A stretch of DNA of 64,000 bases from an uncultured Planctomycetaceae bacterium (lineage in GTDB: Bacteria; Planctomycetota; Planctomycetia; Planctomycetales; Planctomycetaceae), in NCBI GenBank assembly GCA_903871805.1, contig CAIQIE010000319.1, positions 1-64,000 of the forward strand. The letters are read 5' to 3'. Each line of letters starts with the position of its first letter. Within the stretch, counting starts at the first letter, position 1. Below are positions 52,268 to 54,762 of the stretch, one piece after another. Both the position numbers and the translations under genes were made by a program. Below the pieces are notes generated by a model. That model was not told the DNA's origin and made no database searches. It saw only the letters and a list, made by a program, of their open reading frames with translations.

Positions 52268-53836
52268 TCAGCTGCGAACCAGTCCTCGATCCTTATGGAT
52301 TTTGTACTCAAACGCATCTACCAGAGCGATCCAGCTGGCTTCGATAATGTTTTCGCTGACTCCGACGGTACTCCAGACAGAGTTCCGGTCGCGACTTTCG
52401 ATCACGACTCGCACCCGAGCCGCCGTGCCTTCGGCACTGTTGATCACCCGCACCTTGTAATCCACCAGAGCCATTTCGGAAATACCGGGATAGACAGGAG
52501 TGAGCGCCTTTCGAAGCGCGCTGTCCAGTGCATTCACGGGACCATCGCCCTCACCAACCACGTGCTGACAGGAAGACGCCGTGGTCAGTTTCAAAACGGC
52601 TTCCGTCATCGGTTCACGGGCCTGGTTTTCGACATGCACCCGATAGTGATCCAATTGGAAAGCGGCCTCGTAGAGCCCGGTTTGCTTCATCACCAGCAGA
52701 TCGAAGGACGCTTCCGCAGCCTCAAACTGATAGCCTTGATTTTCCAGATCCTGAACAGCATTCAGAATCTTTGCCATCATCTGATTGTCGTCGCTGATCT
52801 GAAACTTGCTGGTCTTGGCAACAATATTGGATCGGCCGGACAGTTCGCTGACCAGAATGCGTCGCTCATTCCCCACGGCTTCCGGCGGAATATGCTCATA
52901 GCTTCGCGCCAGCCTGTTGACAGCATGCACATGCATACCGCCTTTGTGGGCGAACGCACTTGTTCCGACAAACGGCTGCCCGGAACGAAAGTTCATATTG
53001 GCAAGTTCATAGACGTAGCGGGACAGTTCCGTCAGTCGCTGAATTCCGCCTTCGCACAGCACGTCATAACCCAGCTTGATAGACAGATTGGCGGCTGTGG
53101 AAATCAGGTCCGCATTTCCGCACCGCTCGCCAATGCCGTTGACTGTTCCCTGCACCTGAATGGCGCCAGATCGAATCGCTGCCAGGGAATTAGCCACTGC
53201 CAGATCGCAGTCATTGTGACAGTGAATACCCACAGGAACGCTGACCTGCTGCCGAAGCGCTGAAACAAATTCTGCAATCTGCTCCGGCAGAGTTCCTCCG
53301 TTTGTGTCGCACATGACGATCATGTCCGCACCAGCATCGGCAGCTGCTTTCAGTGTCTGAAGGGCATAATCAGGATTGGCCTTCCACCCATCAAAACAGT
53401 GCTCTGCATCATAAATCGCCTCACGTCCCTGCGATTTCACAAAGGCGATCGAATCCCGAATCATTGCCAGGTTTTCTTCCAGTGACACCCGCAGAACCTC
53501 GGTCACATGCAAATCCCATGTCTTGCCGACGATCGTGCAGACGGGGGCGCGAGAACGAATCAGGGCCTGCATTCCAATGTCTTCTGCCGCTGCAACCCCC
53601 TTACGCCGGGTCATCCCAAAGGCACACACCTTTGCATGACGCAGCTTCAGGTCCGCCACACGCTGAAAATACTCCTCATCTTTCGGGTTGGAAAGCGGGT
53701 AGCCCCCTTCAATGTAGTCAAACCCCAGCTCGTCCAGTCGCTGCGTAATCGTCAGCTTATCCTGCAGAGAAAAGTTGATACCTTCTCCCTGAGAACCATC
53801 GCGTAACGTTGTGTCATACAGTTGAATGCGGGACAT
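52268..53836 (-). CDS. cimA: Citramalate synthase
   Basis: This enzyme condenses pyruvate and acetyl-CoA to (R)-citramalate, the first step of the threonine-independent isoleucine route. From ATG 53836 the 522-residue protein has the HMGL-like barrel with QLYDTTLRDGSQGEGINF, the EGGYPLSNPKD and GIHCHNDCDLAVANSL motifs, and NGIGERCGNADL. The C-terminal regulatory domain (LeuA_dimer) has VNALDSALRKAL. The family is closer to the long CimA (TIGR00977) than to LeuA. Expression should be governed by the attenuator upstream (53898-54062), which senses Ile through a leader peptide. Confidence 0.93.
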   Translation of the reverse strand: MSRIQLYDTTLRDGSQGEGINFSLQDKLTITQRLDELGFDYIEGGYPLSNPKDEEYFQRVADLKLRHAKVCAFGMTRRKGVAAAEDIGMQALIRSRAPVCTIVGKTWDLHVTEVLRVSLEENLAMIRDSIAFVKSQGREAIYDAEHCFDGWKANPDYALQTLKAAADAGADMIVMCDTNGGTLPEQIAEFVSALRQQVSVPVGIHCHNDCDLAVANSLAAIRSGAIQVQGTVNGIGERCGNADLISTAANLSIKLGYDVLCEGGIQRLTELSRYVYELANMNFRSGQPFVGTSAFAHKGGMHVHAVNRLARSYEHIPPEAVGNERRILVSELSGRSNIVAKTSKFQISDDNQMMAKILNAVQDLENQGYQFEAAEASFDLLVMKQTGLYEAAFQLDHYRVHVENQAREPMTEAVLKLTTASSCQHVVGEGDGPVNALDSALRKALTPVYPGISEMALVDYKVRVINSAEGTAARVRVVIESRDRNSVWSTVGVSENIIEASWIALVDAFEYKIHKDRGLVRS

Positions 53837-53897
53837 GGAAGCATCTTTCACGACCCTGGACCACAGTTCGATGGTCTGACAGGCCACAATCACCAAT

Positions 53898-53924
53898 AAA
53901 AAAACCCCCAGGGGAACCTGAGGG
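53898..53924 (-). terminator. Intrinsic terminator of the cimA attenuator
   Basis: Read on the minus strand: CCCTCAGG (53924-53917), loop TTCC, CCTGGGGG (53912-53905), then seven T (53904-53898). The arms give 8 pairs including one G-U. The left arm can instead pair with CCTGAGG at 53953-53947 (7 perfect pairs), so the terminator has an alternative antiterminator form. It lies 62 nt upstream of cimA. Confidence 0.8.
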
Positions 53925-53946
53925 CTTGTGGTTGGTTTTCAGGATT

Positions 53947-53953
53947 CCTCAGG
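53947..53953 (-). promoter_or_regulatory. Antiterminator arm overlapping the leader stop
   Basis: CCTGAGG on the minus strand (53953-53947) contains the TGA of the leader peptide and is the exact complement of CCTCAGG (53923-53917), the left arm of the terminator. A ribosome that finishes the leader would cover it and let the terminator form; a ribosome stalled on upstream Ile codons would leave it free. Confidence 0.75.
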
Positions 53954-54005
53954 CAAAACGTCGTTGGCGACCGATCCGAAGACCGTCGATCCGAATGCCA
54001 ATCAT
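53949..54005 (-). CDS. Ile-rich leader peptide of the cimA attenuator
   Basis: An 18-codon frame, ATG 54005 to TGA 53951-53949, reads MIGIRIDGLRIGRQRRFA. Four of its 18 residues are Ile (two AUU, two AUC) and one is Leu. AGGA lies 8 nt upstream of the ATG and a strong promoter lies 30 bp before it. The stop codon is inside the antiterminator arm. It matches in form the leader peptides of amino-acid biosynthetic operons, whose codons sense charged tRNA. It is too short to have a function of its own. Confidence 0.75.
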   Translation of the reverse strand: MIGIRIDGLRIGRQRRFA

Positions 54006-54033
54006 GGAAAGAATCCTGTTTTTCACGAGGTGT

Positions 54034-54062
54034 ATTTTACGGCACACTCTCGGCAGCGTCAA
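54034..54062 (-). promoter_or_regulatory. Sigma-70-type promoter of the cimA leader
   Basis: TTGACG (54062-54057) and TAAAAT (54039-54034) are separated by exactly 17 bp on the minus strand. Each matches the consensus in 5 of 6 places. Transcription would start near 54027, about 22 nt before the leader ATG and about 190 nt before cimA. Confidence 0.75.
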
Positions 54063-54177
54063 CGAGAAACCCTGAACGCCGGGTTTGTCGCGATGCTCCA
54101 AAGTACGCACAAACCCAATAATCGCTCCATCCCAACCCTGACATGAATGCGCCGGGCCACACCGAGCACATACTCAA

Positions 54178-54762
54178 TCAGGGGGTTTTTCCAGACTTCT
54201 TACGAATTTCCCCCACAAATAGCGTCGTTTGAGGATGCGCCTCTTTCCACTGCGCCCAGGTCGTTCTGGTGAACTCAACATCCGGTACCGGGATGTCTTT
54301 TGATGTCTGGGAATACTGACCGCTCTTCACCCGGATCTGCATTTCCCCATTATGAAATCCTGCCGTCTGAACCAGCAACTGCTCTCCCTTGCCAGATCCC
54401 AGGACCCGCACACAGTCTGTGCGATCGCAGTAGGTTACGGCAAATCCCTGAGGTCCTCTGTGCTCATTGACGACATGGTAACGCATATCCTTCAGGGCAC
54501 TGAGTTGAAAGGCCCGCGGCACACCCTCATACAAAACTCCGATCACCTGTTCCTCAGGTGCAATTTCCGCCTCGGTTGCGGTCAGAATCTCCGGATTCAC
54601 AAGAGGCGGGACAAGAAACGGGGTACTCATCATGCCGCCGGAAATATCCGGCGGCATGGGAGTCTTTGCCGGCGATGGCGTCTGCTGCTGCTGCGGTTCA
54701 TCACACCCGGCGACAATCAGCACAACGATCGCCAGAACTTTCCATTTGTCGTCAAAATTCAC
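54178..54762 (-). CDS. Lipoprotein with a DUF3179-like domain
   Basis: The 194-residue protein has a lipobox (VLIVAGC, Cys at residue 20) after a hydrophobic signal. A Gln/Pro-rich linker follows, then a domain resembling DUF3179: PEEQVIGVLYEGVPRAFQLSAL and HVVNEHRGPQGFAVTYCDRTDCVRVL, matching the family's 'NDTV...VTYCPLC' core with a Cys pair at TYCDRTDC. DUF3179 proteins are exported and of unknown role. The gene lies upstream of the cimA leader and shares its direction. Confidence 0.75.
   Translation of the reverse strand: MNFDDKWKVLAIVVLIVAGCDEPQQQQTPSPAKTPMPPDISGGMMSTPFLVPPLVNPEILTATEAEIAPEEQVIGVLYEGVPRAFQLSALKDMRYHVVNEHRGPQGFAVTYCDRTDCVRVLGSGKGEQLLVQTAGFHNGEMQIRVKSGQYSQTSKDIPVPDVEFTRTTWAQWKEAHPQTTLFVGEIRKKSGKTP

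Follow-up and report, generated by a model that had tools for sequence, protein, structure and literature searches.

The enterobacterial ilvGMEDA, ilvB and leu leaders are classical attenuators with 1:2, 2:3 and 3:4 pairings, and attenuation needs a ribosome that moves close behind RNA polymerase. Ribosome-mediated attenuators have been established in Proteobacteria, in Actinobacteria and, in a few cases, in Firmicutes (PMC2965389, PMC1262725, PMC10272879, PMC13236596, PMC11857589). The Corynebacterium ilvBNC leader also has an anti-antiterminator (PMC10272879, PMC11857589); leaderless initiation is discussed in the C. glutamicum paper, and reporter evidence exists for Corynebacterium and Mycobacterium leaders (PMC10272879, PMC11857589, PMC13236596). 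A literature search found nothing linking cimA or Planctomycetes with amino-acid attenuation; the Lopatovskaya 2010 survey lay outside its coverage, so an earlier report may exist.

Here we describe an element on the minus strand of a 64,000-nucleotide stretch of planctomycete DNA (the window). Judging from the sequence and its relatives, we put at roughly 0.9 the probability that it is a ribosome-mediated transcription attenuator that tunes cimA by the supply of charged tRNA-Ile. An earlier note on the same DNA had offered this interpretation, which appears largely right.

The cimA gene and its leader region

The gene downstream of the element, cimA (52268..53836, minus strand, start ATG at 53836), encodes a product that matches the NCBIfam model TIGR00977 at 698.6 bits (cut-off 450) and contains HMGL-like, HCS_D2 (post-HMGL) and LeuA_dimer domains. 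It is a true citramalate synthase, which bears out the earlier claim that the downstream enzyme feeds isoleucine synthesis. Citramalate synthase catalyzes the initial reaction of the pyruvate pathway to isoleucine; for the threonine-dehydratase route, TIGR01127 matches were found below the cut-off only. Because the neighboring polX is convergent, cimA is apparently the sole gene of its unit.

The putative promoter consists of a -35 box TTGACG (54057..54062) and a -10 box TAAAAT (54034..54039), both on the minus strand like all parts below and separated by a 17-nt spacer; same-genus loci have TTGAC and TA-rich -10 hexamers at the same places. Arm B (arm 2, the 5' side of the antiterminator) is CCTGAGG at 53947..53953 and overlaps the leader stop. 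Arm C (arm 3), CCCTCAGG at 53917..53924, is common to antiterminator and terminator, and arm D (arm 4), CCTGGGGG at 53905..53912, forms the 3' side of the terminator stem, with a T7 tract at 53898..53904. The promoter, stop-overlapping CCTGAGG, CCTCAGG and seven T described in the earlier note are all in place on this strand, and its pairings form as described, except that the terminator stem is longer, at 11 bp (AAGCCCTCAGG/CCTGGGGGTTT; predicted -16.6 kcal/mol, z -3.2). This predicted intrinsic terminator sits between the leader ORF and cimA. A consensus scan of 53800-54300 returned one promoter-like and one terminator-like site, both of them those of the element. In the stretch 53895-53904, and at the same place in relatives, a conserved RTTGG (TTTTTTTATTGG, TTTTTTTGTTGG) comes after the T tract; it could pair with the CCAAC/CAAC that precedes arm C, which would make the terminator stem longer.

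The leader ORF (53949..54026, minus strand; GTG...TGA, 25 codons, MKNRILSMIGIRIDGLRIGRQRRFA) starts 7 nt after the -10 box, carries five Ile codons at positions 5, 9, 11, 13 and 18, and ends with TGA at 53951-53949. Its frame and stop had been recognized before, in a version that began at ATG 54005 behind a Shine-Dalgarno AGGA and held four Ile rather than five; the frame opens upstream, at GTG 54026. Neither this ATG nor its Shine-Dalgarno is conserved. In the nearest relative, G003, whose leader (MKTLIISSISIRIDGPQIRHRCCFA) likewise has 25 codons with Ile at the same five positions, the ATG is replaced by TCA (Ser); the G003 start was taken as the ATG at the 6-7-nt spacing, and a TTG lies earlier. 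An in-frame start codon is found 6-7 nt after the -10 box in 14 same-genus loci, GTG in the window and ATG elsewhere. We regard GTG 54026, not ATG 54005, as the probable start of the leader. Because this start is only 7 nt from the -10 box and so close to +1, the transcript is probably leaderless, and the spacing suggests that the cimA leader is probably read in this way throughout the window's genus. The gap is larger elsewhere: about 20-60 nt between the best -10 box and the start in most cimA leaders outside the genus, and about 40-80 nt in most leuA leaders of the same genomes (discussed below). Judged by these gaps, a leaderless start seems to be a property of the cimA leader in this genus. 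Relative to cimA itself, leader Ile codons favor ATT over ATC (55:26 versus 157:198, p = 1e-4).

The minimum free energy fold of the full leader combines A:B with C:D, and the fold made without the 5' part and without D gives B:C. Arm A is a candidate protector (arm 1), CAGGATTCTTT at 54008..54018 (minus strand), which contains the AGGA mentioned above; the arm set of the earlier note included B, C and D, which stand, and missed this one. In the window, arm A pairs over 11 bp with GAGGAATCCTG (53950-53940; p = 0.017). Over the genus the pairing has a Fisher p of 0.12 and is not significant either by duplex energy or by helix score; with no genus-wide support for A:B, the fourth strand is only a candidate. 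Folding also places a candidate hairpin, P1 (GACGGUC UUCG GAUCGGUC), at 53969..53987 (minus strand) in the leader. A hairpin in the 3' half of the leader beats shuffles over the genus (Fisher 2e-5, from related sequences; p = 0.26 for the window alone), and it is possible that P1 acts as an RNA polymerase pause hairpin.

Isoleucine codons, arm coevolution and the leuA contrast

Regions upstream of cimA were compared across 49 genomes (that of the window and 48 others), many of which look metagenome-assembled. In 41 of 49 genomes, a terminator lies within 420 nt upstream of cimA. Short ORFs that end no more than 110 nt before this terminator reach a maximum of 5.2 Ile on average, as against 1.55 in dinucleotide shuffles, with 31 of 41 loci at p<=0.05; relatives are non-independent samples, and because the loci are related, p-values combined over them are too small. 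The enrichment is specific: of the 16 residues compared, Ile has a ratio of 3.45, well above Val (1.51), Leu (1.39) and all the rest (0.8-1.4). Upstream of cimA, the remaining 8 of the 49 genomes lack a terminator and a few more (G026, G036 and G055) lack an Ile leader, so the element is not universal. The pattern CCTGAGG-N15..40-CCTCAGG-N3..8-CCTGRGG has 13 matches in 59 whole genomes, one in each of 13 same-genus genomes (the window's and 12 others). All 13 are directly upstream of cimA; none was found elsewhere in the 59 genomes, and the reversed control gave 0. The earlier note had proposed a search of relatives for conserved Ile codons and covarying arms, and both were found, with leader frame and arms conserved among the relatives.

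Within the window's family, the arms show little change (CCTGAGG/CCCTCAGG/CCTGAGGG). C:D is paired in 96% of cells of the family alignment and has a covariation score of 0.218 versus 0.124 (0/500 shuffles). As B is nearly invariant within the family, a covariation test of B:C is uninformative and the family support for B:C is conservation, not covariation; B:C was judged by shuffle and swap tests instead. Over 57 loci, C pairs with its own B at -16.0 kcal/mol versus -10.8 kcal/mol with shuffled B (37 loci at p<=0.05). Swapping C between loci changes the energy from -16.7 to -12.1 kcal/mol, a cost of 4.6 (p<5e-5), and in the 28 loci without a CTCAGG core the values are -17.2 versus -12.2 kcal/mol. 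Several loci, among them G023, G031, G035 and L093, have a B:C pairing no better than chance. Across the class and beyond, B, C and D are replaced together, as in the B/C/D arms of G038 (CGGGGTCG/CGACCCCG/CTTCGGGG), G051 (CTCCGGGG/CCCCGGAG/CTCCGGG), L071 (CGGTAGGGT/ACCCTGCCG/GGCAGGG) and L058 (TCCAGGGCT/AGCTCTGGA/CTCCAGGGCT).

The position of B relative to the leader follows the codons. B starts a median of 15 nt past the last Ile codon, near the downstream edge of a ribosome stalled there, and the closer to the stop the Ile codons lie, the further downstream B is found (Spearman 0.38, p = 0.005). B sits around the stop, inside the footprint of a ribosome halted at the stop codon. This spacing fits a B that is free during a stall at the control codons and hidden when the ribosome is at the stop.

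Upstream of leuA, the same planctomycetes have a Leu-rich leader before a terminator in 16 of 19 genomes. The leader of the window genome (L161, contig C203) is MRTLLLSLSLLLLPL; the other leuA upstream regions are L162-L180. The contrast between Leu codons at leuA and Ile codons at cimA is an internal control and, of all the evidence, argues most strongly for reading of the codons. The element thus appears to sit on the enzymes that commit carbon to Ile (cimA) and Leu (leuA), with codons that follow the product. As a separate observation, one Leu-rich leader peptide at leuA reads MSELLLTLGLLLLPS, and leuA arms CCTGAG/CCTCAGG/CCCTGAGG/CCTCAGGG have the appearance of a complete four-arm attenuator. 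Terminators were found upstream of ilvC in 0 of 16, trpE in 0 of 16, ilvD in 1 of 14 and hisG in 1 of 16 loci, and the terminators at some ilvB loci came with no convincing branched-chain leader; a search for control codons at ilvB, ilvC, ilvD, hisG and trpE yielded no convincing leader with a terminator.

Proposed mechanism and alternative explanations

We infer the following sequence of transcription start, leader translation, stalling and read-through. Transcription would begin at about GTG 54026, and a ribosome would start at the 5' end and read the leader in the wake of RNA polymerase. If Ile is plentiful, this ribosome would arrive at TGA 53949 and its footprint would hide B, leaving C to pair with D and transcription to stop at the T tract. 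Under Ile shortage it would stall on the Ile codons and leave B clear, and B:C would form before D is made, excluding the terminator and allowing cimA to be transcribed. If the leader is not translated, A may pair with B and the terminator form, as in the 1:2/2:3/3:4 scheme, at least in the window genome.

An alternative that keeps this mechanism but widens the signal is attenuation that senses Ile together with Val (and Thr), not Ile alone. Val and Thr accompany Ile in the leaders of G038, G047, G051, G056 and L061 (VVIITTG, VVVITTG, VIVIITIG) and in a distant-family leader with ITVVVITTD; with the Val ratio of 1.51, these sequences hint that distant families sense more than Ile. For the locus described here we regard the wider signal as unlikely, since in the leaders of the window and its genus Ile is the only much-repeated branched-chain residue, scattered Leu aside.

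Leaders can also act on translation. Leader peptides upstream of genes can boost translation via reinitiation (PMC4833913), and some actinobacterial leaders have no terminators (PMC1262725), so the leader might control cimA through reinitiation or by masking its ribosome site rather than through termination. The conserved downstream part of the element, however, is a strong terminator with a T tract, and its distance from the cimA ATG varies (61 nt in the window, 23-260 nt in other loci), which leaves the start of cimA free of any conserved structure. Both features make translational control a very improbable explanation and favor control of termination by the translating ribosome.

The gene upstream of the element, for a DUF3179 protein (54762-54178, minus strand), lies on the same strand as cimA, with about 115 nt between its end and the promoter, an arrangement in which the terminator could be its plain intrinsic terminator and the Ile codons chance. 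We give this reading next to no weight: the promoter lies between that gene and the terminator, the DUF3179 gene is absent from all other cimA loci compared whereas leader and terminator stay with cimA, and Ile enrichment and B:C coevolution speak against chance codons. Since the DUF3179 gene is not common to the relatives tested, the terminator belongs to cimA and is not inherited from that gene. The exclusion between B:C and C:D is by itself compatible with any attenuator, including a T-box, ligand riboswitch or RNA-binding protein acting on the same arms, but such a switch is scarcely credible given that an Rfam scan of the window found no family match at gathering thresholds (T-box included), that the sequence outside the arms is variable except for the ORF and offers no conserved aptamer, and that Ile codons are conserved at cimA with Leu codons instead at leuA.

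Distribution and comparison with known systems

The element is not peculiar to the window genome and, judged by these features, seems to occur in most of the sampled part of the class Planctomycetia. For a second set of loci, taken from Gemmataceae only, Ile counts were 4.9 versus 1.4 over the 22 that have a terminator (Fisher 3e-14), and L061, Gemmata sp. IIL30, is a named record with the element. Candidates in named Planctomycetota beyond the close relatives are L066, L071, L072, L074 and L075; other Phycisphaerae, anammox and most non-planctomycete cimA loci compared have no such element. Ile-rich leaders also precede cimA at five delta-proteobacterial or syntroph (Syntrophus) loci (L086, L093, L103, L111 and L118), which possibly represent a second lineage of cimA attenuators. 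These loci have a different set of arms in common, CCTGATAAxG/CCGTTATCAG/CCTGGTAACGG, and one of their leaders reads MHYRNLNTIIGIIIGIISPGNSGA.

The Gemmataceae cimA leaders also share a 14-nt sequence, GCGCAGGGAGTGCG, that can form the hairpin GCGCA-GGGAG-TGCGC and is read in frame as A-Q-G-V-R, mostly after I-A-I-T-A (L030, L058, L060, L280, L281, L286, L289, L290, L291, L297 and L301). It is invariant, third codon positions included, in about 11 genera. None of 41 Gemmataceae genomes contains it more than once, and its place is nearly always directly upstream of cimA. A pause hairpin, an RNA contact and an arrest-peptide-like motif are candidate roles.

Planctomycetes, Gemmata above all, are said to separate transcription and translation spatially, according to the accounts of Gottshall 2014 in PMC6212462 and PMC5394234. 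The presence of the attenuator in Gemmataceae, L061 included, would argue for coupling, if only at these genes, and offers a direct molecular test in this dispute. We lean toward the view that attenuation of cimA by Ile and of leuA by Leu is an old pair in Planctomycetia, Gemmataceae included, that works only through a ribosome trailing RNA polymerase, with a leaderless leader in the window's genus. Gene deletion and reporters exist for Planctopirus limnophila (PMC5394234), a possible reporter host for the element. If correct, these readings would extend leader-peptide attenuation to another phylum and gene, with parallel attenuators at the branch-committing synthases cimA and leuA.

Like the leaders of Corynebacterium ilvBNC (ilvB-II motif; PMC10272879, PMC11857589) and M. 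tuberculosis ilvB1NC (PMC13236596), the cimA element combines a branched-chain leader peptide with a terminator and an antiterminator. Those leaders differ in acting on acetohydroxyacid synthase and in their unrelated sequence, and the planctomycete ilvB loci tested have no such leader. We know of no demonstration that a terminator is used in the mechanism of the mycobacterial polycysteine ORFs. As described in PMC9031893 (for Canestrari 2020), these resemble the element in being leaderless short ORFs with runs of codons for the sensed residue and differ from it in amino acid and genes. The leuA leaders of the same planctomycetes are alike in layout and in terminators with CCTGAGG/CCTCAGG arms but use Leu codons and have no apparent leaderless start. 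With the enterobacterial leaders, the element shares a short leader rich in the pathway's residue, a stop over arm 2, mutually exclusive antiterminator and terminator, and a T tract; it differs in phylum, in serving a single gene, cimA, in having Ile (almost) alone in the genus, in its weak protector and in its probably leaderless start. The working principle is already known, and what appears to be new is the gene, the phylum and the probably leaderless start.
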